From positions 2,728,001-2,792,000 of the forward strand of contig NZ_OU745390.1 in the NCBI RefSeq assembly GCF_916618955.1: DNA of 64,000 nt, written 5' to 3'. A program made the position numbers and the translations under genes. The notes under the pieces were generated by a model. That model was not told the origin of the DNA. It worked only from the letters and a program-made list of their open reading frames with translations, and made no database searches. The number at the start of each line of letters is the position of its first letter. Within the stretch, counting starts at the first letter, position 1. This stretch comes from Pseudomonas sp. Marseille-Q3773. GTDB taxonomy: Bacteria; Pseudomonadota; Gammaproteobacteria; Pseudomonadales; Pseudomonadaceae. This document shows positions 31,040 to 53,558 of the stretch, one piece after another.

Positions 31040-31058
31040 AAGCAACAAAGGTGCCAGC
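31040..31058 (-). promoter_or_regulatory. Sigma-54 promoter for the fliE operon
   Basis: Minus strand CTGGCACCTTTGTTGCTTT: GG at 31055-31054, ten bases, GC at 31043-31042, 62 bases before the fliE ATG. It is a near-consensus -24/-12 element. It lies just past the fleR stop, so FleR is probably the activator of the operon that follows its own gene. Confidence 0.88.
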
Positions 31059-38254: not shown

Positions 38255-39106
38255 TTACTGAAGCAGCTTCAGTACGGCGGACGGCAGCTGGTTGGCCTGG
38301 GCCAGAACCGAAGTGGAAGCTTGCTGCAGGGTCTGCTGCTTGGTCAGCTGGGCAGTTTCAGCAGCGAAGTCGGTGTCCTGTACACGGCCACGAGCGGCTT
38401 CGGCGTTTTCGTTGATGTTCTGCAGGTTGTTGACGGTGCTGGTCAGACGGTTCTGCGAAGCACCCAGGTCAGCACGGGTGGTGTTGATGGTTTGCAGAGC
38501 GGCGTCGATGGCGTCCAGAGCAGCGTTCATGCTGGCTTCGGCTTCGGCGCTGGTCGAACCGGTGATGGCGATGGAAGCCGAGTCAACGCTCAGGGTCTGG
38601 GCATCGAAACCGCTGTCCAGGCTGATGCTGATCTGGTTGTTGGCACCGGAGTTGGAACCGACCTGGAAGGTCAGGACGCCAGCGGTACCGTCCAGCAGGT
38701 TCTTGCCGTTCAGCTGGGTCGACTTGGCGATACGGCTCAGCTCGTCGGACATTTGTGCGAACTCTTTGTTCAGAGCTTCACGGTCCTTGGTGCTGTTCGA
38801 GTCGTTTCGCGACTGGACTGCCAGTTCACGCATACGTTGCAGGATGTTGGTCTGCTCTTGCATCGCGCCTTCAGCGGTCTGGGCGATGGAGATACCGTCG
38901 TTGGCGTTTTTGATCGCCATGGTCTGACCACGGATCTGCGAGGTCATGCGGGTAGCGATCTGCAGGCCGGCGGCGTCGTCTTTGGCGCTGTTGATTTTCA
39001 GGCCGGAGGACAGACGGGTCATCGAGGTGCTCAGTGCATCGGAAGCACGGTTCAGGTTTTTCTGAACGCCCAGAGAGGTGGTGTTGGTGTTAACGGTCAA
39101 AGCCAT
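38255..39106 (-). CDS. fliC: Flagellin FliC (short type)
   Basis: 283 residues from ATG 39106. The N-terminal D0/D1 (MALTVNTNTTSLGVQKNL...) and C-terminal D1/D0 (ending NQLPSAVLKLLQ) are canonical, with the flg22 region at 30-51 (RLSSGLKINSAKDDAAGLQ). The central part is reduced to about 50 residues; residues 151-186 hold 13 Ser/Thr, likely O-glycosylation targets. P. syringae flagellin is of similar length, while many pseudomonads have 400-700 residues. It is driven by a FliA promoter. Confidence 0.97.
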   Translation of the reverse strand: MALTVNTNTTSLGVQKNLNRASDALSTSMTRLSSGLKINSAKDDAAGLQIATRMTSQIRGQTMAIKNANDGISIAQTAEGAMQEQTNILQRMRELAVQSRNDSNSTKDREALNKEFAQMSDELSRIAKSTQLNGKNLLDGTAGVLTFQVGSNSGANNQISISLDSGFDAQTLSVDSASIAITGSTSAEAEASMNAALDAIDAALQTINTTRADLGASQNRLTSTVNNLQNINENAEAARGRVQDTDFAAETAQLTKQQTLQQASTSVLAQANQLPSAVLKLLQ

Positions 39107-39188
39107 GACGAATTCCTCGTTGGATTGGGTACTACGGCTTCCGGCCTTGGCAAATCGCCGGGTGTGGCACAGAGAACCTTCGTAATAG

Positions 39189-39215
39189 TTATCTTCGTCA
39201 GGGCGGGTTTCTTTA
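39189..39215 (-). promoter_or_regulatory. Sigma-28 (FliA) promoter for fliC
   Basis: Minus strand TAAAGAAA (39215-39208), 11-base spacer, GAAGATAA (39196-39189), 83 bases before the fliC ATG. It matches TAAAGTTT-N11-GCCGATAA at most positions. Confidence 0.8.
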
Positions 39216-39269
39216 GCGGTTTTTCGAAAAAAATTACTGGCAACCTGCCACCCCAATGAAATCAAGGAG

Positions 39270-39358: not shown

Positions 39359-40294
39359 TCAGTCACGTCGCTCGATGATCGCCGAGCCCCAGGACAGGCC
39401 CACACCGAAACCACTCAAGGCCACCCGCTTGTGCCGGGAGCCGAGTACGTGCTTCTCGAGCAGCAGCGGAATGCTCGACGACACGGTATTGCCGGTCTCG
39501 ACCATGTCCTTGACGAATTTCTGCTTGTGCTCGCCCTCGACGAAGCGCGCCGAGACCGCATCGACGATCGCCGCGCTGCCCTGGTGCAGGCAGTACAAGT
39601 CGATGTCGCCCGGCTGCAGGGCACTGGCTTCCAGCAGTTGCTGCAAATGCGCCGGCACTTTCACCAGGGCGAAGTTGTAGACCTGGCGGCCGTTCATGAA
39701 GAACTTGCCATCGGTGGTGCGCAGGTGCTCGGCCCCGGCGCCGTCACTGCCGAACAGCGACTTGCCCAGCTGCCAGGCAGCGCCCTCGCCCATCCAGGTA
39801 GCGGTGGCGGCATCGCCGAACAGCATGGTGGTGTTGCGGTCTTCGGGATCGACGATCTTCGAATAGGGATCGGCGGTGATCAGCAGGCCATTTTTCAGCC
39901 CGGCGGCTTCCATGAAGCCTTTCATCGCATACAGGCCATAGACATAGCCGGAGCAGCCCAGCGAGATGTCGAAGGCAGCCACGGCAGTCGACAGGCCAAG
40001 CTTGTGCTGGACGATCGCCGCAGTGTGCGGCAGGCCTTCGGCATCACCGTTCTGGGTGACCACGATCACCGCATCGATGGCTGCCGGGTCAAGCGATGGA
40101 TTGGCAGCGAACAGGTTCTTCGCGGCCTCGACGCAAAGGTCGGAGGTTTCCTGGGCAGCTTCCTTGCGCGGCAAGAAGGTCGAACCGATCTTGCCAAAGA
40201 TGAAGTCCTGGTCCTTGCCGAATTTCGCGCCCTGCGCGTAGTTGTCCACGCCTTCAGTGGGCACGTAACTGGCGATGCTTTTAATGCCAATCAT
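39359..40294 (-). CDS. Beta-ketoacyl-ACP synthase III-like protein beside fliC
   Basis: 311 residues from ATG 40294; the longer open frame is promoter DNA. Thiolase fold with an intact KAS III triad: Cys in DISLGCSGYVYG, His in LYCLHQGSA, Asn in VETGNTVSSSIP. It condenses an acyl-CoA or acyl-ACP starter. A homologous gene (orf3) lies between fgt2 and fliC in P. syringae, so a role in acyl decoration of the flagellar glycan is likely but unproven. It differs from housekeeping fabH by context and divergence. Confidence 0.88.
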   Translation of the reverse strand: MIGIKSIASYVPTEGVDNYAQGAKFGKDQDFIFGKIGSTFLPRKEAAQETSDLCVEAAKNLFAANPSLDPAAIDAVIVVTQNGDAEGLPHTAAIVQHKLGLSTAVAAFDISLGCSGYVYGLYAMKGFMEAAGLKNGLLITADPYSKIVDPEDRNTTMLFGDAATATWMGEGAAWQLGKSLFGSDGAGAEHLRTTDGKFFMNGRQVYNFALVKVPAHLQQLLEASALQPGDIDLYCLHQGSAAIVDAVSARFVEGEHKQKFVKDMVETGNTVSSSIPLLLEKHVLGSRHKRVALSGFGVGLSWGSAIIERRD

Positions 40295-40421
40295 ATGGCT
40301 TCCCAATTCAGTAACAGCGAAATACCCGCCAGGGCCAAACGGCAAAACGCCAGGCGATACGGGTGGCTCCCGATCCCTGACGGCTTGTCCGGGGGGCGAC
40401 GCGGCGGTTCCCGGTTTCGAC

Positions 40422-40483
40422 AATATACAGTGAAGATGCGCGTTCTGACTCTTAAGTCACGCTCTTTTTGTCGAATCGACAAA
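40422..40483 (-). promoter_or_regulatory. Putative regulated promoter of the ketoacyl synthase gene with two palindromes
   Basis: A -10-like TATATT occurs on the minus strand (40427-40422). Where a -35 would be lies the palindrome TGACT-CTTA-AGTCA (40446-40459). Eight bases further upstream is a perfect odd palindrome TTTGTCGA-A-TCGACAAA (40467-40483). No good -35 hexamer is seen, which fits activator dependence. Confidence 0.45.
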
Positions 40484-40494
40484 GCGGGCAAGTC

Positions 40495-40597
40495 GGGCCG
40501 CCTGGCGGCCCGTCGCGGGTGAGCCCGCTCCCACGGATTCGATCGCGCAATCAGACACTGCGCGATCCCGGGCGGGAGCCGAGGCTGCAAGGCAGCC
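40495..40597. repeat. Cluster of hairpins and a REP element behind the 965-residue glycosyltransferase gene
   Basis: The 309-base gap 40295-40603 contains, besides the promoter region, GGGCCGCC-T-GGCGGCCC (40495-40511), a REP half (CGCGGGTGAGCCCGCTCCCAC, 40515-40535), a perfect 9-bp hairpin GATCGCGCA/TGCGCGATC (40541-40567) and GGCTGC-N3-GCAGCC (40583-40597). They lie downstream of the island operon and probably end or protect its messenger. Confidence 0.7.
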
Positions 40598-40603
40598 CGG
40601 CGA

Positions 40604-43501
40604 TCAAGCGATCAGCGCCTGCCACTCGACCCGGCTGTGCGGGTCCAGGGTGAACAGCGCCGCGCCGCGGCTGTGCCCGGCGTTGTAGAACGGGTCCTGC
40701 GCGTGCGGGGCACACGGCAGTGCATCCACCTGGCCATGGCGCACCACCTGCGCCTGGGGCGTCCACACCACCAACAGCCCGGCCTCGGACACGCTCAGGC
40801 AGGCTGCCACCTGTGCCGCGCGAATGCTCGCCGCCTGTTCATCCAGCCCGCCCAGCGCCCGCAGCACTTCGGCCCGCACCATCAGGCAACCCGACACCGC
40901 CGAGACGTTGTGCTCCACCTGCAAGCGCTGCAGGTAGCCCGGTGCATCCTTGGCCAGGCCCTGGAACGCCGGGCGGATGCCCGCCTCGCCCGCCAGCACC
41001 AGCCCGGCCTCGACCACCTTGCCGTCGCTGCCCAGCAGCTTGCCGCCAACCACCCCGACCTCGGGGCGCTGGGCCTGGTTGAGCAGGCCTTCCAGCCAGT
41101 TGGCATTGAGCACTTCGGCATCACTGTCGAGCATCACCAGGTAGTCGCCCTGCGCCTCACGGCTGGCCAGGTTGAGCATGGCGACCGGCGCCATGGCCTG
41201 CTCGCTGCGGATAACCCGTACCCGGCTGCCGGCAGCCGCCAGGCTGGCCAGCCATTCGCACAGCTGCGGCGACTGGCTGGCGTTGTCGGCGATAACGATC
41301 TCGTGGTTCTGGTAACGCGTGCGCTGCAGCACGCTGACCAGGCACCTCTGCAGTGTTTCAGCATTGTCCTGGCAATGCAGCAGGATCGATACTGCCGGGC
41401 GCTCGGCATGCCGATAGTCGATCTGGTGAGTGCCCGGGTGTACCGAACCCACCGTGGCCGCATAGCCACGCTGAGCCAGACGGCGAGTCAGCACCGCCCG
41501 CTCCTGGTCCTGGCTGTCGAGCGCAGGGGCGTTGCAGATCAACAGCGGCTCGGCAAGGTGCGCCAGGCCGGCCAGGCCTTGCTCGCCGATCATGCGCAGC
41601 AACAGGTCGAACTCCAGCGCCAGCGGGTACTGGCTGTCGAAGCCACCTGCCGCCAGCAGCAGGTCACGGCGCAGCAACCAGTGACGCGCCATCACCCCGG
41701 GCACGCTCTGCAGCAAATCGAGACTGGTGCCAGGACGCAGCACTTCACGCAGACGGCCGTCCGCCTGCACCTGGATTTCATCCATGGCCACCGCGCGAAT
41801 GCCTTCGGCACCCAGCAGTTCAAGGCTGGCCCGGAGCAAGCCGCTGGCGGTGAAGCGATCGCCGGCTTCGGCCAGCACCACCCAGTCGGTATCCAGTTGG
41901 GCGATCGCCTGGTTGATCTGGCGTACGTGGTCGTTGCTGTCGACCTTGACGAAGTGCACGGTCTGCCCGGCATTGGTCACCATCGGCAGGTCGCCGCTGG
42001 TCAGTACCACCACCTTGAACCGGCGGCACGGCCCAGCCATCAGGCTGTCGAAGGTGGCCTGCAGCTGGTCCATCTGCGCGTCCAGGTCGAGCAGCACGAT
42101 ACCAAAGCTTGGACCACCGTCTACTGCCGCCAGGCGCTGCCGGGCCAGACTGACCTGCTCGGCGTCCGGCGTACGCGCTTCGAGCCAGTCCAGCAACTGC
42201 CCGGAGGGCAGCGATGCGAGCAGCGCCTGGCTGTCATAGCTCGGCAATGCCGCGAGCCGGGCCAGCCAGGGCCGTAGCGGAGCGGCCTCGGCTTCGTCAC
42301 CAGCTGCCTCCAGCGAGGCCAGCAGGCGCTCCACCACCACCCGGTTGAACGGGCTCAGGGCCAGCGCCTGCCACAGGCGTGCGCGGACGGTGCGCTCGTT
42401 GTCATTGGCATTGACCTGCATCAGCGCCTGCTGACGCACCAGGATCGCTTCGAGCTCACGCAGCTGGATGCGCCCGCAAGGCATGGCATGGATGAGGAAT
42501 TCCAGCTGAGCCAGCAGATCGAACATCGGCTGGTTGTAGAACGGCATCTCGACGAACTGCTGTTTGCCGAAGATGCGCAACGGCTCGGGGCTCGGCACGT
42601 TCCAGCGCGAGGTGATGATCATGCAGCCATGCAGGGCACGACCGCTGAGCAAGCCCTCGGCCATGGCCTGGAAGCCTTCCAGCACCACCTGTTGCACCCG
42701 TTCGGCACCGAGGCCGCTGAGCGCGGTCGGGATCGAGGCGAGAAACGCGGCGAACTGCTCGCGTTCCTGGCGGCTGCGCTCGTCACGGTTGGCCAGCACG
42801 GTGAGCACGTTGGTGTTGTGGTCCGACCCCCCCAGGTTGGCTTCCCGAACCGCGTACGGAATCGGCAGGATACGCGCCTTGGCGTTGGCCAGCAGGTAGA
42901 AGGTATGGCCGATTTCCTGCCACTCGAAGCTGGTGTTCGCCGGCAGCAGCGCATACCACTGCCGCAGCAGGTCGGTACGGGTGACCGCGTAGAACGGCGG
43001 CAGGAACTGGCCCATGAACTCGACGAGGCGCTGGGCCGGGTCGTCGCTGCAGTAGTCTTCCTGCACGCGCTTGTCACGCCGGTAGAAGTGCACCTCGGTG
43101 CCATGCCCCACGTACATCATGCCGTAGCCATGGCACACGCCGTAATCCGGGTGTTGCTCAAGGAACTGCACCGACTGGGCCATGCCATCGAACAGCAGGA
43201 AGTCGTCGTCTGCGGCAAAGGTCATGAACGGCGTATGCACTTCGTTCACGCCATAGGCGAGCTTGTCCTGCAGCCCTTTGTAGGTGTACTGCGGCAGGTG
43301 GCGGTAGTCCACCTGCGGGTAGTCCGCCTGCAGGGTGGCGTCGGCCTGGCTGGAGGAATCCAGCACCAGGATGCTCGCCGGGAAGTCGCGATAATAGTGC
43401 AAGGCCCGACGCAGGAACGCCGGACGGTTATGGGTGATCAACACCACGGTGAAACGCTCGCGCAGCGAGCGGTCGATGAGCGGGGTATCCTGAGGCTGCA
43501 T
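40604..43501 (-). CDS. Large multi-module glycosyltransferase (Fgt2-like), flagellin glycosylation
   Basis: 965 residues from ATG 43501, with AGGAAGG upstream. Three GT-A-like modules. Module 1 (about 16-260) has FTVVLITHNRPAFL and metal motif DDD at 98-100. Module 2 (about 475-650) is degenerate (VVLAEAGDRF where DXD should be). Module 3 (about 705-930) is GT2-like with MLDSDAEV near 790 but lacks the acidic pair before its last helix (DEQAASIRAAQVAACL). By position next to the KAS III gene and by size it resembles Fgt2 of P. syringae. It is the last gene of the rfbF operon. Confidence 0.85.
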   Translation of the reverse strand: MQPQDTPLIDRSLRERFTVVLITHNRPAFLRRALHYYRDFPASILVLDSSSQADATLQADYPQVDYRHLPQYTYKGLQDKLAYGVNEVHTPFMTFAADDDFLLFDGMAQSVQFLEQHPDYGVCHGYGMMYVGHGTEVHFYRRDKRVQEDYCSDDPAQRLVEFMGQFLPPFYAVTRTDLLRQWYALLPANTSFEWQEIGHTFYLLANAKARILPIPYAVREANLGGSDHNTNVLTVLANRDERSRQEREQFAAFLASIPTALSGLGAERVQQVVLEGFQAMAEGLLSGRALHGCMIITSRWNVPSPEPLRIFGKQQFVEMPFYNQPMFDLLAQLEFLIHAMPCGRIQLRELEAILVRQQALMQVNANDNERTVRARLWQALALSPFNRVVVERLLASLEAAGDEAEAAPLRPWLARLAALPSYDSQALLASLPSGQLLDWLEARTPDAEQVSLARQRLAAVDGGPSFGIVLLDLDAQMDQLQATFDSLMAGPCRRFKVVVLTSGDLPMVTNAGQTVHFVKVDSNDHVRQINQAIAQLDTDWVVLAEAGDRFTASGLLRASLELLGAEGIRAVAMDEIQVQADGRLREVLRPGTSLDLLQSVPGVMARHWLLRRDLLLAAGGFDSQYPLALEFDLLLRMIGEQGLAGLAHLAEPLLICNAPALDSQDQERAVLTRRLAQRGYAATVGSVHPGTHQIDYRHAERPAVSILLHCQDNAETLQRCLVSVLQRTRYQNHEIVIADNASQSPQLCEWLASLAAAGSRVRVIRSEQAMAPVAMLNLASREAQGDYLVMLDSDAEVLNANWLEGLLNQAQRPEVGVVGGKLLGSDGKVVEAGLVLAGEAGIRPAFQGLAKDAPGYLQRLQVEHNVSAVSGCLMVRAEVLRALGGLDEQAASIRAAQVAACLSVSEAGLLVVWTPQAQVVRHGQVDALPCAPHAQDPFYNAGHSRGAALFTLDPHSRVEWQALIA

Positions 43502-43534
43502 GAAGACCTTCCTGCTGGTGACCTGGGGTAACAA

Positions 43535-44299
43535 TCAACGCACGCGGCGCAGGTAGCCGTCCGGCGCTACGGTCAGCAGCAGCTTGTCCTGCACCTGGCG
43601 GTCGATGGCGAAGTCGCTGTTCTCTTTCAGGTACTGCCACACCGCGGTCTTCGGGTTGTCGCCATGGCCCCATGGGCGGTCCGGGAAGAAGTCGGCCGGC
43701 ATGTCCTCGACCACGGTGTCCATCACCACGCAGTAGCTGTCCACCGACACCAGCGGCGCATAGGCGCGCAGCTCTTCGAGCACGTGGTCATGGGTGTGGT
43801 TGGAATCGAGCACCACGATGACCTTCTTGCCTTCGGCCAGCTGGCGCACCTTGGCAACCATCTCCGGGGCGATGCTCGAACCTTCGAACATGGTGATGCG
43901 GTGCGCCATCGGGTGTTCTTCGATGGCCTTGCGGTTGTGCGGGCGGATGTCGACGTCGATGCCCAGCACCTCGCCATGGCCCAGCAGTTGCAGCAGCGAA
44001 GCGTAGTAGATGATCGAACCGCCATGGGCGATGCCGCACTCGATGATCAGGTCTGGCTGGATGCGCCACACCAGTTCCTGCATGGCAATCATGTCCTGGG
44101 GCAGCTGGATGATCGGCCGGCCCATCCACGAGAAATGGTAGCTGTACTTGTGCTTGGCCGATTCGTTGAACAGGTCCCGTGCCAGGCCCTGGAGCTTCTG
44201 GTCCTGGCCCTGGGCGGCGATCTGCTCGTTGCACTCGGCGATGAAGGCCTGGTGGACGTTGTTGTTGTCAGTCATGGAAGCGGTCTCTGCAAAGGTCAT
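43535..44299 (-). CDS. CmcI-family (cephalosporin hydroxylase/rhamnosyl O-methyltransferase type) protein
   Basis: 254 residues from ATG 44299, which overlaps the preceding stop as ATGA; ATG 44275 is an alternative. It is a class I methyltransferase fold of the CmcI type: PDLIIECGIAHGGSIIYYASLL is the SAM loop, GIDVDIRPHNRKAI the acidic strand, VIVVLDSNHTHDHVLEEL the metal-binding region. Relatives O-methylate sugars, so methylation of a sugar or glycan in the flagellar glycosylation pathway is likely. The substrate is unknown. Confidence 0.82.
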   Translation of the reverse strand: MTFAETASMTDNNNVHQAFIAECNEQIAAQGQDQKLQGLARDLFNESAKHKYSYHFSWMGRPIIQLPQDMIAMQELVWRIQPDLIIECGIAHGGSIIYYASLLQLLGHGEVLGIDVDIRPHNRKAIEEHPMAHRITMFEGSSIAPEMVAKVRQLAEGKKVIVVLDSNHTHDHVLEELRAYAPLVSVDSYCVVMDTVVEDMPADFFPDRPWGHGDNPKTAVWQYLKENSDFAIDRQVQDKLLLTVAPDGYLRRVR

Positions 44300-45363
44300 T
44301 GGAACGCGGCATCATCGACCGCGTGGTAGACGAAACGGTTGCCGGTGTCGCGGCGGATCTCGTCCAGGTAGTTGGAATTCATCACGAAGATCTGCGCACC
44401 GTCCGGCAGGCTCGCCAGCGCTTCCTGCGGCGACGACACGCGCAAGCCACTGAGCGGCAGGTGGCGACCCTGCTTGGCCGGGTTGATGTCGACCACGTGG
44501 TCGACCTGCACGCCGGCACGCTGCAGGAACAGCGAATAGATCACGCCCTTGGACGACGCCCCCCAGATCGCCGCACCGCGCCCGGCATGCTCACGCAGCA
44601 ACGCCTGGCCGCGTTCGAGGCTGGCGCTGAAGCCCGCCGGCAACTGCAGGCGCTGGCCATCGAAGGCTGGCACCCGCAGGCTGGCCAGGTCGGCGACGAT
44701 GTACAGGTACTGGCCGTTGAACAGATGGCCGGCGTCCAGCACCGTGCCGAAACACCGACGCAGGTCATCCAGGCGGAAGTAGTTGACGTGCTCGTAGAAC
44801 AGGTCGAACCACGCGCGGTGGTCGAGGATCCAGTCCAGGCATGGCACTTCGATGTAGATAAGCCCCCCCTGGTTGGCATCGGCGATGGCCTCGAGAAACG
44901 CCAGCGGGTCGGCGATATGTTCCAGCACATGACGCAGCACCACGGCATCGGCCGACAACCCCAGCGCACGGGTGAACGGCGCCTTGATCACCTCGGGGTT
45001 GTCGCCTTCGTAGGCCGGGTCGATGCCGGTCACCCGGTGCCCGCGCTGGCGCAGCAACTCGAGGAAGTACCCCTTGCCGCAGCCCACCTCAATCAGGCGC
45101 TGACCGGCAAAGTAGCGGGTGATCAGCCGTTCGACGTCATCCAGGTGACGCTGGAACGCCGGCGACAGCGCCTGCTCGTTCTGGTAATCGCTGTCGTAGC
45201 TCAGCAAGGACGCGTCGAAGGCCTGGTTGTAGACCAGGCCGGTGCGCTCATCCTGGACCAGGCACATGTCACCGCTGGCCGACGCGCATGCGCTGGCGGC
45301 ATCGGCGAAGGTGCGGTTCTGCAGCACGGGCAGGCCGGCTGCGCGGTACAACTCATAGGCCAT
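44296..45363 (-). CDS. SAM-dependent methyltransferase with C-terminal domain of the sugar C-methyltransferase type
   Basis: 355 residues. SAM motif I LIEVGCGKGYFLELL (about 89-103), post-I VTGIDPAYEGDNP, motif II region ADAVVLRHVLEHIADPLAFL. The C-terminal part (about 265-350) GAAIWGASSKGVIYSLFL... VDINPAKQGRHLPLSGLRV matches the C-terminal domain of sugar C-methyltransferases. The N-terminal zinc-binding cysteines typical of that family are not clear. Its start overlaps the end of the epimerase gene by 11 bases. It could be a C-, O- or N-methyltransferase. Confidence 0.8.
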   Translation of the reverse strand: MAYELYRAAGLPVLQNRTFADAASACASASGDMCLVQDERTGLVYNQAFDASLLSYDSDYQNEQALSPAFQRHLDDVERLITRYFAGQRLIEVGCGKGYFLELLRQRGHRVTGIDPAYEGDNPEVIKAPFTRALGLSADAVVLRHVLEHIADPLAFLEAIADANQGGLIYIEVPCLDWILDHRAWFDLFYEHVNYFRLDDLRRCFGTVLDAGHLFNGQYLYIVADLASLRVPAFDGQRLQLPAGFSASLERGQALLREHAGRGAAIWGASSKGVIYSLFLQRAGVQVDHVVDINPAKQGRHLPLSGLRVSSPQEALASLPDGAQIFVMNSNYLDEIRRDTGNRFVYHAVDDAAFQ

Positions 45364-46231
45364 GGGGCGCTCCTTGGGCAGCCAACAGCTGCTCGAGTCG
45401 GTCGGTCACGGCCCAGAACGCCATGGGTTCGTGGCTCGGATAGGGATAATGCCCCAGGTTCAGCAGCAGCTCGGCGCCGCGCTCGCGCAGGCGCTGTTCG
45501 ACCAGGCTGCGCACCGCTACCGGTCGGCCGCTGGCGCAGTTGACCACGCCGGAGAACCCGGTGCAGTGCAACAGCCCGGCCAATTGCCGTGCTGCCTCGG
45601 TGACCGGCTGGAAGTCGCGCAGTTGCTCGCCGGCGGACATGTCGAACACCGCCGCCTTGCTGTCGATGGCGCGGTCGAGTGCAGCCAGCAGGCTATTGGG
45701 GTTCTGGCCTTCACCATGCAGGTAGAACAAGCGCGCCCATTGCAAGGTGAACGGCCGGTGCATCTGCAACGCCTGGAGGAACTGATGCAGGCTGTGCTTG
45801 GCCAGGCCATAGGGGTTGGCCGGGCGCGCCGGGCAGTGTTCGTCCAGTGGGCCGCTCTGCATGCCGTATTCGAAGCAGGTGCCGGTGACCAGCACCTGCG
45901 CCACGCCCGCCTCGACCGCGAGCTTGACGAAGCGATAGTCGGCCATCAGGTTCTGCTCCAGGTGAAACAGCGCCTGGTAATTCGGCAGCCCCGGCCAGGC
46001 CAGGTGGGCCAGGGCATCGATACCGTCGACCCAGCTGGCGACCTGCCCGGCATCCGCCAGCTGCAGATCAGCGGCGACGAACTGCACCTGGTCGAACCAC
46101 GGCATGCGGCGCGCCCGCTCCAGGTCACGCGCCAGGGCGCGTACCCGACAACCGCGGGCCAGCAGCTGCGCCACCAGATGGCGGCCAACGAAACCGGTGG
46201 CCCCGGTCACCAGTACATGCAGCGCGCTCAT
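45353..46231 (-). CDS. NAD-dependent epimerase/dehydratase family protein (probable nucleotide-sugar 4-ketoreductase)
   Basis: 292 residues from ATG 46231, overlapping the upstream stop as ATGA. Rossmann motif VLVTGATGFVGRHL (about 6-19) and the catalytic Tyr-x3-Lys in NPYGLAKHSLHQ. Extended SDR fold as in RmlD/TylD-like 4-ketoreductases and epimerases. Its place between two methyltransferase genes suggests it reduces the 4-keto group after C-methylation. Epimerase activity is equally possible from sequence alone. Confidence 0.85.
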   Translation of the reverse strand: MSALHVLVTGATGFVGRHLVAQLLARGCRVRALARDLERARRMPWFDQVQFVAADLQLADAGQVASWVDGIDALAHLAWPGLPNYQALFHLEQNLMADYRFVKLAVEAGVAQVLVTGTCFEYGMQSGPLDEHCPARPANPYGLAKHSLHQFLQALQMHRPFTLQWARLFYLHGEGQNPNSLLAALDRAIDSKAAVFDMSAGEQLRDFQPVTEAARQLAGLLHCTGFSGVVNCASGRPVAVRSLVEQRLRERGAELLLNLGHYPYPSHEPMAFWAVTDRLEQLLAAQGAPHGL

Positions 46232-47454
46232 AGCACGGTCAACTCGGGCACGGCGATGACGAAGCGACCGCCCCACTCACGGATGCCGGCCTGCTGTTCA
46301 CTGACTTCGCGCAGCAGGTTCCACGGCAGCACCAGCACGTAGTCCGGCTGCTCTTCGGCAAGGCGTTCGGGCGCCACTATCGGGATGCGGCTACCGGGCA
46401 GGAACTTGCCCTGCTTGTGCGGGTTGGCGTCGGCCACCCAGGCCAGCAGGTCGGCCTTGACCCCGGCATAGTTGAGCAAGGTATTGCCCTTGGCGGCGGC
46501 GCCGTAGCCGACCACCCGCTTGCCGGCGGCCTTGGCATCCAGCAGGAAGCGCAGCAGTTGCAGCTTGATGCGCTCGGCGGCCGGCGCCAGGGTGGCGTAG
46601 AAGCCGGGGCTACGCACGCCCACCTCCTCTTCCAGCGCCAGCAGGCGGGCGACGGTCGGTTCCACGGCGCGGCGCTGGCCATCGGCACGCTGCACGAACA
46701 CCCGCAGCGAGCCACCATGGGTCGACAGCTCCTGCACGTCGAACAGCTCCAGGCCGTTGCGCTGGCAGAGGATCTGCACCGCGGTCAGCGACAGGTAGGA
46801 ATAGTGCTCGTGGTACAGCGTGTCGAACTGATGCTGGGCGATCAGCGACAGCAGGTGCGGGAATTCGAAGGTGGCCACGCCGCTCGGCTTGAGCAAGCTG
46901 GCGAAGCCGCCGAGGAAGTCATTGATGTCCGGCACATGGGCAAGCACGTTGTTGGCTGCCATCAGGTCGGCGCCCCAGCCCTCGGCCAGCAGTTGCGCGG
47001 CCACGGTGCGGCCAAAGAACACTTCGCGGATTTCCAGGCCCTTGGCCCGCGCCGCCTCGGCAGTGCTGCGGGTCGGCTCGACGCCCAGGCAGGGAATGCC
47101 GCGCCGGGCCACGTACTGCAGCAGGTAGCCATCGTTGGCGGCAATTTCCACCACGCGGCTGTCGGCATTCAGCCCGAAGCGCTCGGTCATGCTCGCCACA
47201 TAGGCTTCGGCATGGGCCAGCCAGGAGCTGGAATAGGAGCTGAAGTAGGCATAGTCGGCGTCGAACAGCTGCTCGGCGCGGGTGTAGTCCTCGGTCTGCA
47301 CCAGCCAGCATTGCTCGCATACCGCGACTTTCAACGGCACCCACTGCTCCGCCTCGGCCAGTTGCTCGGGGCGCAGGTAGGCATTGGAGGGCGGCGAGGT
47401 ACCCAGATCGATCAACGGCAGGTGCAGGGCACTGCCACAACCACGGCAATTCAT
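46228..47454 (-). CDS. Sugar C-methyltransferase (TylC3/NovU-like)
   Basis: 408 residues. Three parts as in sugar C-3/C-5 methyltransferases: an N-terminal zinc site (CRGCGSALHLPLIDLG and VAVCEQCWLVQTEDY, about 3-55); the SAM domain with RVVEIAANDGYLLQYV and NNVLAHVPDINDFL; and the C-terminal domain GKRVVGYGAAAKGNTLLNYAG...VADANPHKQGKFLPGSRIPI (about 310-400). Known relatives methylate C-3 or C-5 of 4-keto-6-deoxy nucleotide sugars. With RfbF/RfbG next door the substrate is probably CDP-4-keto-6-deoxyglucose or its epimer. It overlaps rfbC and the epimerase gene by 4 bases each. Confidence 0.85.
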   Translation of the reverse strand: MNCRGCGSALHLPLIDLGTSPPSNAYLRPEQLAEAEQWVPLKVAVCEQCWLVQTEDYTRAEQLFDADYAYFSSYSSSWLAHAEAYVASMTERFGLNADSRVVEIAANDGYLLQYVARRGIPCLGVEPTRSTAEAARAKGLEIREVFFGRTVAAQLLAEGWGADLMAANNVLAHVPDINDFLGGFASLLKPSGVATFEFPHLLSLIAQHQFDTLYHEHYSYLSLTAVQILCQRNGLELFDVQELSTHGGSLRVFVQRADGQRRAVEPTVARLLALEEEVGVRSPGFYATLAPAAERIKLQLLRFLLDAKAAGKRVVGYGAAAKGNTLLNYAGVKADLLAWVADANPHKQGKFLPGSRIPIVAPERLAEEQPDYVLVLPWNLLREVSEQQAGIREWGGRFVIAVPELTVL

Positions 47455-48011
47455 ACGGTCACTCCGGTAAAGCGGTCGTCCAGCCAGGGGTGCTGCTCAT
47501 CCCGGGCCGAGAGGTTGATCACGGGCAGCGGCCAGGCAATGGCCAGGCGCGGGTCGAGCACCGACAGCCCGCCTTCGTGCTCCGGGGCGTAGTCGGCGCT
47601 GTGCAGGTACAGCAGCTCGGCGTCGTCGCTCAGGGCCTGGAAGCCGTGGGCGCAGCCAGCCGGCACCAGCAGGCTGCTGCCCTGGCCGGCCTCGAGGTGT
47701 TCGGCATGCCAGCGCAGGAAGGTCGGCGAGCCGGCACGCAGATCGACCACCACATCCCATACCGCGCCCTGCAGGCAGGTGATGTACTTGCGCTCCGGTT
47801 GCGGCCCGGCCTGGTAATGCAGGCCGCGCACGCTGCCGCGCTGGCGGGTCAGCGAGCGGTTGATCTGGCGGATGTGGAACGGCGCGCCGAAGCGCTCCAG
47901 GCTGTCTTCACAGAACAACCGCGAAAAAGCGCCACGGGCGTCTTCGACACGGCGATGTTCGATGCGCGCCAGGCCCGGCAACGGCAAAGGGTGCAGGCGG
48001 TACTGGCTCAC
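47451..48011 (-). CDS. rfbC: dTDP-4-dehydrorhamnose 3,5-epimerase-like protein (acting on the CDP-sugar)
   Basis: 186 residues from GTG 48011, overlapping the rfbG stop as GTGA, with AGGAG five bases upstream. The RmlC cupin: DARGAFSRLF, HIRQINRSLTRQRGSVRGLHYQ (catalytic His in RGLH), VWDVVVDLRAGSPTFLRW, LLVPAGCAHGFQALSD. Classical RmlC acts on a dTDP sugar, but the direct coupling to rfbF-rfbG implies a CDP-4-keto-6-deoxyhexose substrate, as with epimerases of CDP-sugar pathways. Confidence 0.85.
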   Translation of the reverse strand: MSQYRLHPLPLPGLARIEHRRVEDARGAFSRLFCEDSLERFGAPFHIRQINRSLTRQRGSVRGLHYQAGPQPERKYITCLQGAVWDVVVDLRAGSPTFLRWHAEHLEAGQGSSLLVPAGCAHGFQALSDDAELLYLHSADYAPEHEGGLSVLDPRLAIAWPLPVINLSARDEQHPWLDDRFTGVTV

Positions 48012-49090
48012 AGCGACTCCTGGTACAGGCTCAGCTGGGTCAGGCTCACCGCACGCATGTCCATGCCCTTGTGCCAGGCAAGGTGCCAGCCCAGGGTGCG
48101 CTCGAGGCATCCCTCGAGTGCCCAGCGCGGGCGCCAGGCCAGCAGCTGGCGGGCACGTGAGCTGTCCAGGCGCAGCAAACCGGCTTCGTGCATGTCGCTC
48201 TGCTCGAAGCTGACGCCGGGCGCCTGCGGCCAGCGATCGGCCAGCAACTGCACCACCTCGCCGACGCTGCACATGTCATCGTCACCGGGGCCGAAGTTCC
48301 ACGCGCCGGCAAAGCGCTGACCGTGCTGATAAAGGCTCGCCGCCAGCTGCAGGTAGCCGGCCAGCGGCTCCAGCACGTGCTGCCAGGGGCGCACAGCCGC
48401 GGGGAAGCGCAGGGTCACCGGCTCACCGGCGGTCCACGCCTTGAGCACGTCGGGGATCAGCCGCTCGGGCGAGAAGTCGCCACCGCCCAGCACGTTGCCG
48501 GCCCGTGCGGTGGCAAGGCTCAGGCCATGTTCGGCATAGCGCTCGGCCGGGAAGAACGATGCGGCATAGGACTGCGCGAGGATCTCGCAGCAGGCCTTGC
48601 TGCTGCTGTAGGGGTCGTGCCCGCCCAGCGCTTCGTTCTCGCGATAGGGCCAGGGCCATTCCTGGTTGGCGTACACTTTGTCGGTGGTGACCACAACGCA
48701 GGCGCGCACGCCACCGGTCTGGCGCACGGCTTCGAGCAGGTTGAGGGTACCCATGACATTGGTCGAATAGGTGCCCAGCGGATCGCGGTAGCTTTCGCGC
48801 ACCAGCGGTTGCGCCGCCAGGTGCAGGACGATCTCCGGCTGCACTTCGGCGACCAGCTCCAGCAGCACGCCAAGGTCGCGGATGTCGCCGCGACGGTCAT
48901 CGATGCCCTCGCCGACCCGTGCCAGCTCGAACAGGCTCGGCTCGGTCGCAGGGTCGAGGGCGAAGCCGGTGACCTGGGCGCCCAGGCTGTGCAGCCAGAG
49001 CGCCAGCCAGCTGCCCTTGAAACCGGTATGGCCGGTGAGCAGAACGCGTTTGCCAGCCCAGAACGCAGGGCTCAGTCCCACTGCTTCCAT
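48008..49090 (-). CDS. rfbG: CDP-glucose 4,6-dehydratase
   Basis: 360 residues from ATG 49090 with GGGAGGCACC upstream. Extended SDR: VLLTGHTGFKGSWLALWL (NAD site), VVTTDKVYANQEW, catalytic Tyr-x3-Lys in DPYSSSKACCE. It converts CDP-glucose to CDP-4-keto-6-deoxyglucose. It overlaps the 3' end of rfbF by 19 bases. Confidence 0.93.
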   Translation of the reverse strand: MEAVGLSPAFWAGKRVLLTGHTGFKGSWLALWLHSLGAQVTGFALDPATEPSLFELARVGEGIDDRRGDIRDLGVLLELVAEVQPEIVLHLAAQPLVRESYRDPLGTYSTNVMGTLNLLEAVRQTGGVRACVVVTTDKVYANQEWPWPYRENEALGGHDPYSSSKACCEILAQSYAASFFPAERYAEHGLSLATARAGNVLGGGDFSPERLIPDVLKAWTAGEPVTLRFPAAVRPWQHVLEPLAGYLQLAASLYQHGQRFAGAWNFGPGDDDMCSVGEVVQLLADRWPQAPGVSFEQSDMHEAGLLRLDSSRARQLLAWRPRWALEGCLERTLGWHLAWHKGMDMRAVSLTQLSLYQESL

Positions 49091-49845
49091 GGTGCCTCCC
49101 CGCTGTTCCACAACTGTTCCAGGTGGTTCTTGTCCCGCAGGGTATCCATCGGGTGCCAGAAGCCTTCATGGGCGAAGGCGTGCAGTTGCCCCTCATGGGC
49201 CAGGCGCGACAGCGGCTCGGCCTCCCACGAGGTGGCATCGCCGTCGATGTAGGGCAGCACCTCGGGCGACAGCACGAAGAAGCCACCATTGATCCAGCCG
49301 CCATCACCGCGCGGTTTCTCGGTAAAGCCCAGCACCTGGTCGCCATCGCGCTGCAGGGCACCGTAGCGGCCAGGTGGCTGCACCGCCGTGACCGTGGCGA
49401 ACTTGCCGTGGCCGTGGTGGAATTCGACCAGCGCGCCGATGTCGATGTCGGACACGCCATCACCGTAGGTGAAGCAGAACGCCTTCTCGCCTTCCAGGTA
49501 ACGTGCGGCGCGGCGCAGTCGGCCACCAGTCATGGTTTCTTCACCGGTGTCTACCAGGGTCACACGCCATGGCTCGCTGTAGTTCTGATGCACGTCCATG
49601 CGGTTGGCGCGCATGTCGAAGGTGACGTCGGAAGTGTGCAGGAAGTAGTTGGCGAAGAAGTCCTTGATCGCGTAGCCCTTGTAGCCCAGGCAAATCACGA
49701 AGTCGTGGATACCGTGCGCCGAATACTGCTTCATGATGTGCCAAAGAATTGGCTTGCCACCGATCTCGATCATCGGTTTGGGCTTGAGGTGCGACTCTTC
49801 GCTGATACGCGTGCCGAGACCACCCGCCAGAATGACTGCCTTCAT
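49072..49845 (-). CDS. rfbF: Glucose-1-phosphate cytidylyltransferase
   Basis: 257 residues. Nucleotidyltransferase signature AVILAGGLGTRISEESHLKPKPMIEIGGKPILWHI at the N-terminus, the cytidylyltransferase motif FTYGDGVSDIDI and INGGFFVLSPEVLPYI. It makes CDP-glucose from CTP and glucose-1-phosphate. It is the first gene of an eight-gene coupled unit extending to 40604. The 93 bases before it (to the terminator at 49939) show no convincing sigma-54 or sigma-28 site. Confidence 0.94.
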   Translation of the reverse strand: MKAVILAGGLGTRISEESHLKPKPMIEIGGKPILWHIMKQYSAHGIHDFVICLGYKGYAIKDFFANYFLHTSDVTFDMRANRMDVHQNYSEPWRVTLVDTGEETMTGGRLRRAARYLEGEKAFCFTYGDGVSDIDIGALVEFHHGHGKFATVTAVQPPGRYGALQRDGDQVLGFTEKPRGDGGWINGGFFVLSPEVLPYIDGDATSWEAEPLSRLAHEGQLHAFAHEGFWHPMDTLRDKNHLEQLWNSGEAPWKQWD

Positions 49846-49938
49846 CGATTTCCTCTTGTACTTCGCGCCCCTTGCAACCCCAGGGCGAAGGATTTATGGC
49901 GATATCGATGGGGTACTGCAGGAAATGCGCCAATCTGC

Positions 49939-49970
49939 AAAAAAGCAGGGGCCGCTTTGCGACCCCTGCT
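49939..49970 (-). terminator. Intrinsic terminator after the 1190-residue glycosyltransferase gene
   Basis: AGCAGGGG (49944-49951) pairs with CCCCTGCT (49963-49970); on the minus strand the stem runs into TTTTTT. It separates the first glycosyltransferase gene from the rfbF operon. Confidence 0.92.
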
Positions 49971-49985
49971 CCGCTCAGGCAAAAA

Positions 49986-52900
49986 TCAGTCGGCCAGCCA
50001 GCCCCACTCCCAGTGGCGCAGGTTGTCGTCACGCAGCACAAAGTCGCGCATCACCGCCTCGCGCAATTCGTCGCCCATGCGGTAACTGGCCGCCGGGTCG
50101 GCCAGGTGCGAGCGGATCGCCTGCAGCCATTCCTCTGTACTGTTGCTGTACACCCGCGTGCACGGCAGGTAGCCGCGGTAGGCCTCGGTGTCGGTGCAGA
50201 TGGTCGGGTAACCGCAGGCGCCGTACTCCAGCAGCCGCAAGTTGCTCTTGCAGTCGTTGAAGATATGGAATTCCAGCGGCGCCAGGGCCAGGTCGAGGTT
50301 CAGGCTCGCCAGCTTGGCCGGGTAGCGCGCCAGCGGCACGCCCGGGTGGTACTCGTGGATGTAGGGCTTGAGCGCCTCGGGGCACATGCCAAAGAACACC
50401 CACTCCACCTCGTTGGCCAGTTCGCGCACCACCTCGGCGATGATCTCCAGGTCGCCACTGTGGCTGGTACCGCCGCCCCACCCCACCCGCGGCTTGCTCG
50501 AAGTGCCACGGCGGCTGGCCGGCAGGTTGGTCCACAGGTGCGGTGCCAGCATGTTCGGCACCACGCGGATATCGTCATGCATGTCTGCCAGCGCATTGGC
50601 CAACGCCTGGGTGGTGACTACCACCCGGTCGCACAGGCTGATGCCGCGGCGCAGGTGCTGCTCGATGTCGGCTGGCTTGTTGCGCGCATGGGTGTTCTTC
50701 TTCGGCGCGCTGAGCACGTAGTCATCGATCTCGAAGATGCGCCGGGCATTGGAGAAGCGGGCGATGCGTTCGATGTCGCGCACCGAGTCATCGTTATGGC
50801 GCAGCTGCAGGATGATCACGTCCGGGTCCATGCGCGCCAACTGGACCACCGTCGGCGACTCATAGACCACACGCCCGACCACGCGCCCGGCGGCTTCCAG
50901 CTGCTTGAACGGTTGTTCGACGCGGTAATGGCCCACCGCACTGTCGTTGATCGGCAAACCCAGCACCGACGGCAAGGCCCGGGCACACAGCGGGCTCCAG
51001 CTGCCACGCAGGCTCGGCTCGAGGCTGAAGTCACCGTTGGCCAGCCCCAGGTTGGGGTTATAGGCCGGGTCGCGGACGACCTTGCTCAGCCAACGCTCGC
51101 AGAATACCTGCTGCTGTTCCAGCAACGCGTCCTGGCCAGGCCCATCGCTGCCAGTCGTCGCTTCGCGCTTGAGCAGCACGGCATAGGGCGTGCCGACCAC
51201 CAGATAACCGCGCGCCCCCGCACGCAGGCACAGGTCGAGCTCGGCCATGCCCTGGCTCAGCGGTTGCGCACCCAGCCCTCCCAGCTCGGCGAACACTGAC
51301 TTGCGCACCATCAGGCAATCGCCGCCGACAGCGCTCCAGTCCTGTACTACCTGCAAGCGTTGCAGGTAACCGCGCGCCTGCGCATCTTCCCCGGCGAACG
51401 CCGGACCGGCCACGCTGGCAACCCCCAGCACCCGGCCCGCCTCGACCACCCGGCCCTGGGCATCGACCAGCTTGGCGCCGACCACCGCCACTTCCGGGCG
51501 CTGGGCATGCTGGAGCATTTCCGCCAGCCACTGGCCGTCGAGCACCTGCACGCTGGCATCGAGCAACAACAGGTAGTCACCGCCGGCCTGGGCCGCCGCA
51601 GCATCAAGCAGCTGGCTGCGCGAACGGCCGAGCGCCCGGACCACGCGCAGCATGCCTGCACCGAGCTCGCTCATCGCCTGCAGCCAGCCGTCGACGTCGG
51701 CCGCCACGCTCGGCCCGGCCACCAGCAAGACCTCGTAGCGGCCATAGGCGGTGCGCTCGATCAGCCCTTCGATACAGGCCTGCAGGCCCGTCAGGTCGTC
51801 ACCGACAGGAACCAGGATCGATACCTGCGGGGTGTCGGCATGCAGGTAGTCGACCCGATTGAGCAGCGACAGGTCGTCATGCCGGATCCGATGCGCCACG
51901 CCCAGGCGCTGCAGATGCGCGGCCAGCACCGGTTCACTCTGGGCGATCACTTCCGGCAGCGACAGCCAGTTGGCGAAGCTGAACTCCGACTGCACCTGGA
52001 TTTCGGCAATGTGCTCGACCACCTGCAGGCCTCGGCTCTCGACCAGGCGCCAGAGCAGGTCATGCGGGGCCAGCTCGGCAAAGCCGGCATCGAAACCGCC
52101 AAGGTCGAGAATCGCCTCGCGGGCGAAGGCCAGGGTGCGGCCGACATAGGGGTAGCTACGCAACAGGTCGAGGTTGAAGTCCGGCTTGAACACCGGCTCG
52201 CCCGGCTGGTCATCGAGCCAGGCCCCTTCATCGCTGTAGGCGCATGCCAGGTTGGGGAACACCGCGGCACGTTCGGCCAGCAGCAGAATGGCCGACTCGG
52301 CGAGCCGGTCACCGGCACGCAGCAGGTAGATCCAGTCGGCGTCGTGCAACGAGGCCAGCAACTGGTTCAACTGCTCGGGCCAGTCGCTCTGCAGCGCCTG
52401 GTGCACCAGCGGGATCGGGCTGGCGGGTTCGGCATCGGCCAACACCACGCAGGCATGCACCGGGTACAACTGCCCGGCCAGGCTGTCGAGGGTGCGGCCC
52501 AGGGCCTGGGCGTCACCCTGGGTATCCAGCACCACCGGGACGATGCGCGGCTGGCGCGGCCAGGCCGCTATGGCCTGGGGCAGCAGGCCGCGCTGCACGT
52601 CGCTGAAGCGGCGCGCCGCCAACCACTGCTGATAAAGCTCGGCATAGCTTTCGCATTCGCTGCCCACCCGGCCACCCAGGCGGGTCTGCCAGTTGCTGAT
52701 GATGCGGGCCACGCACAGCTCCTGCCATTGCCGTGGCTGTTGCTGTGCCTCGGTCAGTGGCACGTAGCGCACCCAGCCACTGGCGGGCGCCGCTTCGCCA
52801 CTGCGCGCGGCGAGCATCTGCATCATCCAGCGCCACTCCTGCGGTGCGGCCTGGACCAGCGCTTCCTGCTTGCTCAAGCGCTGCGGGTGCAGGCGCTCGA

Positions 52901-53558
52901 TCAGGCCCGGCTCGCTGAGCATGACCAGGTTGCCGCGCCGCATCAGGCAGGCGAACAGCGCCAGGTCCAGCAGCGCGACGAAACTCAGGCCATCGCTGGT
53001 GAGTGCCTGCAACCACTCCAGTGCCTGCTCGCGACGCATCAGCGCTGCCGAGAAATTGCCCAGGAAGTTAACGGGCCGCCCATCGAGCATGGCCAGCATG
53101 TCTTCGCCCTTGAACAGGCTGTCGACATTGGCGAAGCGCGCATTGGCGATGCGCATCGGCAGAATGAAATTGTTCTCGTCACAGAGCACCCGCTGCGACA
53201 ACACCAGGCCGACTTCGTCGTGCTCCAGCAACGCCTTGGCCTGGTGCGTCACGCACTGCGGGAACAGCCGGTCGTCGTCGCACAGCACCTTGACCAGCGC
53301 GCCCCGGGCCAAGCCCACCGCCTGCACCAGGTTGGCGACAAAGCCCAGGCGCCGGCTGTTGCGCACGTAGCGCACGCAAGCGCGCAAGTCGCCCTCGACA
53401 GCGTTGACGATGGCTTCGATTTCCTCGCCTTCGCTGTCATCGCAGACCAGCACCTCCAGGGCTTCATAGGTCTGGCCGAGGGCGCTGTGCAAGGCCATGG
53501 CAAAGAACCGTGGGCTGTAGGCGGGGATGACGATACTGACGAGAGGCTTTTCGTTCAC
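49986..53558 (-). CDS. Very large multi-module glycosyltransferase (Fgt1-like), flagellin glycosylation
   Basis: 1190 residues from GTG 53558, with AAGG eight bases upstream. Module 1 (1-230) is GT2 with PLVSIVIPAYSPRFF and DDD at 94-96. Module 2 (about 350-560) is degenerate (YLLRAGDRL). Module 3 (about 595-820) is GT2-like with LLLLDASVQV, so the DXD is lost, but keeps ELDLCLRAGARGY. The C-terminal part (about 860-1190) is a GT-B/GT4 domain with VGWGGGTSHSGDLE and RLLEYGACGYPTICTD. By size and position beside flgL it resembles Fgt1 of P. syringae, which starts flagellin glycosylation. It is cytoplasmic. Confidence 0.87.
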   Translation of the reverse strand: MNEKPLVSIVIPAYSPRFFAMALHSALGQTYEALEVLVCDDSEGEEIEAIVNAVEGDLRACVRYVRNSRRLGFVANLVQAVGLARGALVKVLCDDDRLFPQCVTHQAKALLEHDEVGLVLSQRVLCDENNFILPMRIANARFANVDSLFKGEDMLAMLDGRPVNFLGNFSAALMRREQALEWLQALTSDGLSFVALLDLALFACLMRRGNLVMLSEPGLIERLHPQRLSKQEALVQAAPQEWRWMMQMLAARSGEAAPASGWVRYVPLTEAQQQPRQWQELCVARIISNWQTRLGGRVGSECESYAELYQQWLAARRFSDVQRGLLPQAIAAWPRQPRIVPVVLDTQGDAQALGRTLDSLAGQLYPVHACVVLADAEPASPIPLVHQALQSDWPEQLNQLLASLHDADWIYLLRAGDRLAESAILLLAERAAVFPNLACAYSDEGAWLDDQPGEPVFKPDFNLDLLRSYPYVGRTLAFAREAILDLGGFDAGFAELAPHDLLWRLVESRGLQVVEHIAEIQVQSEFSFANWLSLPEVIAQSEPVLAAHLQRLGVAHRIRHDDLSLLNRVDYLHADTPQVSILVPVGDDLTGLQACIEGLIERTAYGRYEVLLVAGPSVAADVDGWLQAMSELGAGMLRVVRALGRSRSQLLDAAAAQAGGDYLLLLDASVQVLDGQWLAEMLQHAQRPEVAVVGAKLVDAQGRVVEAGRVLGVASVAGPAFAGEDAQARGYLQRLQVVQDWSAVGGDCLMVRKSVFAELGGLGAQPLSQGMAELDLCLRAGARGYLVVGTPYAVLLKREATTGSDGPGQDALLEQQQVFCERWLSKVVRDPAYNPNLGLANGDFSLEPSLRGSWSPLCARALPSVLGLPINDSAVGHYRVEQPFKQLEAAGRVVGRVVYESPTVVQLARMDPDVIILQLRHNDDSVRDIERIARFSNARRIFEIDDYVLSAPKKNTHARNKPADIEQHLRRGISLCDRVVVTTQALANALADMHDDIRVVPNMLAPHLWTNLPASRRGTSSKPRVGWGGGTSHSGDLEIIAEVVRELANEVEWVFFGMCPEALKPYIHEYHPGVPLARYPAKLASLNLDLALAPLEFHIFNDCKSNLRLLEYGACGYPTICTDTEAYRGYLPCTRVYSNSTEEWLQAIRSHLADPAASYRMGDELREAVMRDFVLRDDNLRHWEWGWLAD

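Follow-up and report, generated by a model that had tools for sequence, protein, structure and literature searches.

A predicted CDP-branched-sugar cassette in a probable flagellin glycosylation locus of Pseudomonas, with a relative in Azotobacter

Introduction

What sugar is made by the genes that separate flgL from fliC in Pseudomonas sp. Marseille-Q3773, and is flagellin its destination? The question arises from a 64,000-nucleotide stretch of this genome (contig NZ_OU745390.1, positions 2,728,001 to 2,792,000; "the window"), in which an island of ten genes, 53558 to 39359 on the minus strand, lies between the two flagellar genes. An initial annotation had described the island as the P. syringae flagellin glycosylation frame with a CDP-sugar operon inserted between two large glycosyltransferases (GT1 and GT2), and had expected a filament glycan unlike the dTDP-viosamine type. 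The answer that we favour, and consider fairly probable from the gene content, is a flagellin-glycosylation unit in two parts: an acceptor part, which would comprise GT1, GT2, a KAS III-like protein and a short FliC, and a donor cassette for a CDP-branched sugar.

Results

Open reading frames and domain searches in the window give the minus-strand order flgK-flgL-GT1-rfbF-rfbG-rmlC-like-CMT-SDR-MT2-CmcI-GT2-KAS III-fliC-flaG-fliD, where CMT stands for a sugar 3-C-methyltransferase family gene, SDR for a short-chain dehydrogenase/reductase and MT2 for a second methyltransferase. The P. syringae-type order flgL-GT1-GT2-KAS III-fliC is present, and two other Pseudomonas genomes (G153 and G010) have it with no cargo between the glycosyltransferases, as in P. 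syringae. The frame proposed in the initial annotation is thereby confirmed, its gene order, coordinates and overlaps agree with the ends of the reading frames and the starts that we checked, and its "short fliC" encodes 283 amino acids counted from the MALT start.

The donor cassette begins with rfbF (49072-49845), whose product scores 462.7 bits with the glucose-1-phosphate cytidylyltransferase profile TIGR02623 (cut-off 300.25), and rfbG (48008-49090), whose product scores 476.9 bits with the CDP-glucose 4,6-dehydratase profile TIGR02622 (cut-off 278.45). Both exceed equivalog cut-offs, as expected of a CDP-6-deoxyhexose pathway, and in a genome-wide profile search the window rfbG is the only CDP-glucose 4,6-dehydratase above the cut-off. 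The rmlC-like gene (47451-48011, GTG start at 48011) belongs to the nucleoside diphosphate (NDP)-hexulose 3,5-epimerase family (PF00908, E = 2.1e-55) and matches NovW and RmlC-type 3,5-epimerases in the PDB. CMT (46228-47454) combines Methyltransf_13, methyltransferase and Methyltransf_14 domains (PF08421, PF13489, PF08484) with a YHEH motif, the architecture of the TylC3/KijD1/TcaB9 type; we take the motif to have a catalytic role. Among proteins of solved structure CMT is closest to sugar 3-C-methyltransferases, with nearly full-length matches to the D-mycarose 3-C-methyltransferase 4rv9 (E = 1.7e-74), to the sugar 3-C-methyltransferase 5t64 and to TcaB9 (3ndi). The SDR (45353-46231; PF01370), a probable 4-ketoreductase (or epimerase), retains GxxGxxG and YxxxK (YGLAK) and has MoeE5 as its best solved relative. 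MT2 (44296-45363) is an S-adenosylmethionine (SAM) methyltransferase whose C-terminal domain resembles that of CMT (PF13489, E = 1.2e-25; PF08484, E = 8.3e-7). The last gene, CmcI (43535-44299), falls in the CmcI/rhamnosyl O-methyltransferase family, PF04989 spanning 203 of its 254 residues (E = 1.2e-94), and matches the cephalosporin protein CmcI (2bm8) weakly (E = 2.6e-7).

The strain's own genome contains no full-length DegT/VioA/RfbH-type protein: PF01041 gives eight partial matches of 20-36 bits, where real members used as a yardstick score 286 and 372 bits. None of the ten island proteins matches PF01041 or offers an RfbH-type 3-dehydrase of the CDP-3,6-dideoxyhexose pathway, and the whole genome lacks a full-length VioA-type pyridoxal phosphate-dependent aminotransferase for the dTDP-viosamine (mVio) pathway. 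With no such full-length protein in the genome, the known routes should yield no 4-amino sugar and no 3-deoxy sugar, and a viosamine or RfbH-type product was rejected for this strain. This absence supports the expectation of a glycan unlike the dTDP-viosamine type, whose chemistry we would now name more narrowly as a 3-C-methyl-branched 6-deoxyhexose. The predicted donor is an O-methylated CDP-6-deoxy-3-C-methyl-hexose, probably of the L series.

Sequence alone tells us which enzyme families are present and in what order, that they lie beside flagellin both in Pseudomonas and in an Azotobacter genome (see below), and that the strain's genome has no full-length sugar aminotransferase. From this we infer the order of reactions, the stereochemistry, the site of O-methylation, the use of the donor by GT1 and GT2, FliC as acceptor, the product and its linkage. 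RfbF and RfbG would convert glucose-1-phosphate to CDP-4-keto-6-deoxyglucose, which the RmlC-like enzyme would epimerise toward the L series; CMT would add the methyl branch at C3, the SDR would reduce C4, and CmcI, with MT2 where present, would O-methylate the sugar. This would yield a sugar of the CDP-vinelose type for the glycosyltransferases to attach to flagellin; an inner rhamnose, such as P. syringae Fgt1 adds, may serve as the attachment point.

How common is this cassette? A CMT scan of named genomes gave 227 relatives, and the best 80 of these were all examined. Each of the 80 loci contains rfbF, rfbG, rmlC and CMT, and 79 contain CmcI. GT1 lies upstream of rfbF in 69 loci, and flgL or GT1 in 71; the two additional loci (L078 and L086) have flgL but no GT1 upstream of rfbF, and in the remaining nine the contig breaks off 0.36 to 3.65 kb upstream of rfbF. 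The gap between GT1 and rfbF ranges from 119 to 6,296 bases (median 287) and exceeds 1.5 kb in 19 loci, leaving room for other genes. By bit-score thresholds, 43 of the 80 loci resemble the window in having SDR, MT2 and CmcI, 15 have SDR and CmcI, 21 have CmcI but neither SDR nor MT2 in recognisable form, and L078, which is cut by its contig, has none of the three. MT2 is therefore optional among the relatives. Only 5 of the 80 stretches gave matches to KAS III and fliC, since no stretch extends more than 10 kb from CMT and GT2 is followed by further genes in many loci.

In a wider set of 199 Pseudomonas genomes, RfbF exceeds its cut-off in 99. Flagellin rows were usable for 196 (G093, G115 and G185 were left out), and 80 of these have rfbF no more than 40 kb from flagellin: GT1 is there too in 58, sits at another place or on a different contig in six, and is not present in full length in 16. 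The 80 of 196 overstates the window's cassette, as it mixes several cassettes and positions. The arrangement is common in Pseudomonas all the same, contrary to the rarity implied at the outset, and uniqueness to this strain is rejected by both the genus-wide and the best-80 counts.

The sugar genes vary from locus to locus. We annotated 22 stretches, 20 sampled plus L092 and L093. The same gene set as in the window occurs in G149, in G180 and on two contigs of G103. G182 has this set and, between GT2 and KAS, a DegT aminotransferase, an unassigned protein, a cytidylyltransferase, a GNAT-containing protein and NeuB, which together look like a nonulosonic-acid module; an MptE-like protein lies between KAS III and fliC beside this second module (L105:2306-9904). 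G157 pairs GT1 and GT2 with other cargo: an epimerase, an ATP-grasp protein, a phosphoesterase and a DegT protein. In G013 (L103), G060 (L108) and G192 (L112) an RfbH equivalog (NF011936) follows rfbF-rfbG at or near the flagellar locus, and in G025 rfbF-rfbG lies beyond fliD with no CMT. G118 (L102) has a GT41-like protein and rfbF-rfbG-rmlC-CMT-SDR-CmcI adjoining a long fliC, without GT1; its GT41-like partner resembles the Azotobacter arrangement described below. L086 (Pseudomonas alcaligenes MB-090714) carries the cassette between flgL and fliC, and its fliC has an insert between its two matched parts. The sugar cassettes behave as exchangeable cargo, and the glycosyltransferases and short flagellin as one unit.

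Turning to that unit, GT1 (49986-53558, 1190 amino acids, Fgt1-like) has two GT2-family domains and a C-terminal Glyco_trans_1_2 domain (PF00535, PF13641, PF13524); we took the GTG at 53558 as its start, an alternative being possible at 53609. The Fgt2-like GT2 (40604-43534) combines a TIGR04440 domain (136.5 bits, cut-off 70) with a GT2-family domain (PF00535). The short flagellin gene fliC lies at 38255-39265 (PF00669, 153.7 bits). The KAS III-like gene (39359-40423; PF08545, PF08541) has Cys-His-Asn motifs in GCSG, LHQGS and GNTVS and occupies the position of P. syringae orf3, which we take to be a KAS III. It is kept beside fliC with no amino sugar to acylate predicted, and KAS III is also retained in the two cargo-free islands of G153 and G010.

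GT1 and flagellin length are closely associated. Full-length GT1 was defined as a match of at least 1051 bits (at least 44 percent identity), the cut being placed at the bit-score gap between 1051 and 862; this gives 103 genomes, 102 of them with a flagellin row. Among the 196 Pseudomonas genomes, all 102 flagellin frames accompanied by GT1 are at most 390 codons long (99 are at most 345, the others 346, 381 and 390), and 90 of the 94 without GT1 are at least 395 codons. Frame length runs from stop to stop and overstates the protein. In genomes with more than one flagellin we used the one closest to GT1 or rfbF or, failing that, the one with the highest score; this selection can bias the counts towards the association. 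As to the four short flagellins without GT1, G034 has a match to residues 4-724 only, the best match in G080 is at 5.3e-142, and G137 and G175 have none at 1e-90. Below the cut fall 28 genomes whose matches are weaker or partial; 26 of these have long flagellins, and the excluded set includes full-length homologues of 38-41 percent identity (G148, G133, G023, G078 and G116). If every GT1 match at 1e-90 is counted, there are 104 short and 26 long flagellins with GT1, and 2 short and 64 long without.

The association was then placed on an rpoB tree. Its 100 genomes follow the order of the rpoB table, leaving out G093, G115 and G185, which lack a flagellin row, and G123 on account of a contig end. 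On this tree FliC length changes 21 times and GT1 20 times. In 15 independent pairs that differ in GT1, FliC length agrees in 14.8 on average and is opposite in 0 (p = 6e-5); with the loose definition of GT1 the figures are 10.4 and 0.5 in 17 pairs (p = 0.002). The presence of rfbF near fliC does not follow FliC length (6.2 same and 1.7 opposite in 22 pairs, p = 0.18). These figures depend on a single-gene tree with only SH-aLRT support, in which 55 of 97 inner branches are starred, 16 rows have an odd base make-up and G076 has less than half of the columns. Plain linkage alone was considered for the pairing of GT1 with short FliC; rfbF, a marker from the same neighbourhood, speaks against it by not tracking FliC length. 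Block transfer of GT1 with short FliC is a possible cause. On our reading, GT1 and FliC are an acceptor unit, either exchanged as a block or held together functionally, with the sugar cassette as cargo; it is a guess that the glycan substitutes for the missing outer domains of flagellin.

CDP-vinelose is said to have been isolated from Azotobacter vinelandii in the 1960s, and vinelose is 6-deoxy-3-C-methyl-2-O-methyl-L-talose. We sought Azotobacter through its alternative nitrogenases, and found AnfG/VnfG in 7 of 398 family genomes. In one of these, G250, VnfG is identical to PDB chain 5n6y_C (113 of 113 residues) and AnfG to 8boq_C over that whole chain (119 residues). We take both entries to be from A. 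vinelandii, and G250 appears to be this species. CMT occurs in two of the seven genomes, G250 (one match) and G214, and among the four of genus code g17 these two have a CDP-glucose dehydratase above the cut-off, one each. In G250 this dehydratase sits beside fliC, in a cluster of rfbF (73 percent identity to the window), rfbG (51), rmlC (53), CMT (65), a hexapeptide protein, an SDR, CmcI (54), PhyH and TylF. The cluster runs opposite to the adjoining fliC and a TPR-GT41-GT2 protein, with flaG on the other side; the window MT2 finds only a weak match in it, onto CMT. The traits of the sugar nucleotide fit the gene set singly: CDP to RfbF, 6-deoxy to RfbG, L series to RmlC, 3-C-methyl to CMT and O-methyl to CmcI. 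If the 1960s chemistry is right, G250 has no evident source of CDP-vinelose other than this cluster, and flagellin, encoded next to it, is a likely acceptor. We propose that the gene family makes CDP-vinelose-type flagellin donors.

Outside the family the cassette has other surroundings. CMT was found at E <= 1e-110 in 31 of 369 class-wide genomes, one of which is the window's own. In 19 of the other 30 we examined the neighbourhood over some 9 kb or as far as the contig reached; of the remaining eleven, two had contigs of insufficient length and nine were left out. CmcI is present in seven of the 19. To judge from its gene neighbours, the cassette is a general branched-sugar cassette that is found beside flagellin in Pseudomonadaceae and is not flagellin-specific in itself.

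The island is plausible as one transcript unit, 53558 to 39359, given its gene overlaps and flanking hairpins. The overlaps are 19 bases for rfbF/rfbG (rfbG ATG at 49090, rfbF end at 49072), GTGA for rfbG/rmlC (GTG at 48011), 4 bases for rmlC/CMT, ATGA for CMT/SDR (SDR ATG at 46231), 11 bases for SDR/MT2 and 4 bases for MT2/CmcI. On the left the island borders flgL (53633-55204), the hook-filament junction gene, recognised as a reading frame with a PF00669 match in the whole-genome search; a weak hairpin at 53593-53579 lies just 5' of the GT1 GTG. On the right an intrinsic-terminator-like hairpin (39341-39315, minus strand; ten pairs, then a run of eight T) separates KAS III from fliC, the only one that stands out by eye among 12 terminator-like sites (9.2 in shuffles). 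A sigma-70-type promoter scan of the region found none (2.2 expected), and the sigma-54-like pattern with at most two mismatches gives 110 matches in the window (110.7 expected), the sole exact match to TGGCAC-N5-TTGC being at 31042-31056 on the minus strand. A sigma-28-like -10 motif, GCCGATAA, stands at 57400-57407 on the minus strand, about 150 bases upstream of flgK.

Discussion

We read the locus as a two-part flagellin-glycosylation unit. A fuller proposal, which we offer only tentatively, is that CDP-vinelose is the flagellin donor made by the fliC-linked cluster of A. vinelandii, and that the orthologous cassette in many Pseudomonas is exchangeable cargo, with the glycosyltransferase pair and a flagellin without outer domains locked as a unit and the glycan replacing the missing domains.

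Several observations weigh against these proposals. CmcI lies far below the equivalog cut-off for rhamnosyl O-methyltransferases (NF045824, 109.9 against 400 bits) and is placed by PF04989 at the family level only, all eight PF01041 matches nominally exceed Pfam's low cut-off of 19.8 bits, and KAS III is without an evident role if there is no amino sugar. The sigma-28-like GCCGATAA is absent from the island, its matches in the whole window numbering three (0.73 expected). A close relative, G024 (L106; GT1 82 percent identical to the window's), has rfbF-rfbG-rmlC-SDR-MT2-CmcI without CMT, the only CMT match falling on MT2; the methyl branch is therefore not obligatory for the island, and G024, by its gene content, is a natural unbranched control. 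The window SDR has no match at 1e-5 in the G250 cluster (L092), which also has the extra hexapeptide, PhyH and TylF genes and is transcribed against fliC, so that the two sugars may differ. The name vinelose does not occur in the literature searched, which leaves most subscription journals outside it. Finally, homologues of flgK, flgL, fliC, flaG and fliD at 1e-5 are found in none of the 19 non-family neighbourhoods, which argues against a purely flagellar pathway.

Within the two-part reading, it is quite possible that the donor is a CDP-3-C-methyl-6-deoxyhexose other than vinelose, differing in C4 configuration, in the O-methyl site or by a third methyl group from MT2. The SDR may differ in stereochemistry, MT2 is shared by the window and 43 of the 80 loci, and no orthology is detectable between the Azotobacter reductase and the window's; only the link to A. 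vinelandii favours vinelose itself. That the cassette instead serves lipopolysaccharide (LPS) or exopolysaccharide, its proximity to flagellin being incidental, would suit the cassettes of other Gammaproteobacteria, found apart from flagellar genes in all 19 neighbourhoods examined. We nevertheless consider it unlikely for this island, as the cassette follows GT1 in 69 of the 80 Pseudomonas loci, and in Azotobacter and G118 it stands beside fliC with a different glycosyltransferase partner, which is hard to credit to chance. A viosamine-type glycan made by genes elsewhere, with the CDP cassette merely decorating it, would explain why KAS III is kept, P. syringae making an acyl group for its modified viosamine (PMC3927599), but is very improbable in a genome with no full-length VioA-type aminotransferase.

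If the two-part reading and the vinelose assignment are true, a sugar nucleotide known solely from old chemistry would gain both genes and a purpose. The filaments of many soil- and plant-associated Pseudomonas would bear an unusual branched sugar, with a bearing on flagellin recognition by plants and on phage adsorption. The flgL-fliC locus would be a natural experiment in which donor cassettes swap freely but the coupling of the glycosyltransferase pair to flagellin length is kept.

Among known sugars, the predicted donor shares with CDP-vinelose the CDP, 6-deoxy, 3-C-methyl, O-methyl and L-series traits; unlike the Azotobacter cluster, the window has MT2 and another SDR, and for both clusters the product is a prediction. 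The CDP-3,6-dideoxyhexose pathways (abequose, ascarylose, yersiniose) begin with RfbF and RfbG, as the window cassette does; unlike them it has no RfbH, and its C-methylation would be by a SAM enzyme. The route proposed for virenose (6-deoxy-3-C-methyl-gulose) uses TDP or GDP and a 3-C-methyltransferase (PMC3539893). It resembles the window in having an NDP-hexose 3-C-methyltransferase that acts on a 4-keto-6-deoxy sugar, and differs in its TDP or GDP activation and LPS destination. P. putida KT2440 has two RmlC proteins, one in the rml operon and one beside a two-component system (PMC8184846), the b-type flagellin glycan of PAO1 is of another kind (PMC11833859), and the relevant part of PMC8036289 contains no rfb or viosamine terms. 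The literature searched gave no account of a CDP-branched-sugar cassette in a flagellin island and nothing that links flagellin length to glycosylation; 3-C-methyl-2-O-methyl terms appear, in the passage concerned, only in a reference title on a Mycobacterium glycolipid.

The P. aeruginosa PAK a-type island reportedly has its sugar-synthesis genes between flgL and fliC, and in this position the window is like it. The PAK island has OrfA, a VioA homologue, with acyl carrier protein, KAS and reductase homologues, and is homologous to the viosamine island; unlike for the window, no CDP-glucose route appears for it in the corresponding part of that source (PMC3927599). In P. syringae the viosamine genes form a separate island, apart from fgt1-fgt2 upstream of fliC, as the initial annotation had it; Fgt1 attaches rhamnose to serine, and the flagellin of B728a carries six N-acetylhexosamine (HexNAc)-160-146 glycans (PMC3927599). 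The window shares with P. syringae the flgL-GT1-GT2-KAS III-fliC frame and a short flagellin. Unlike P. syringae, it is without a full-length sugar aminotransferase, points to a CDP- rather than a dTDP-sugar, and carries seven sugar genes inside the frame.

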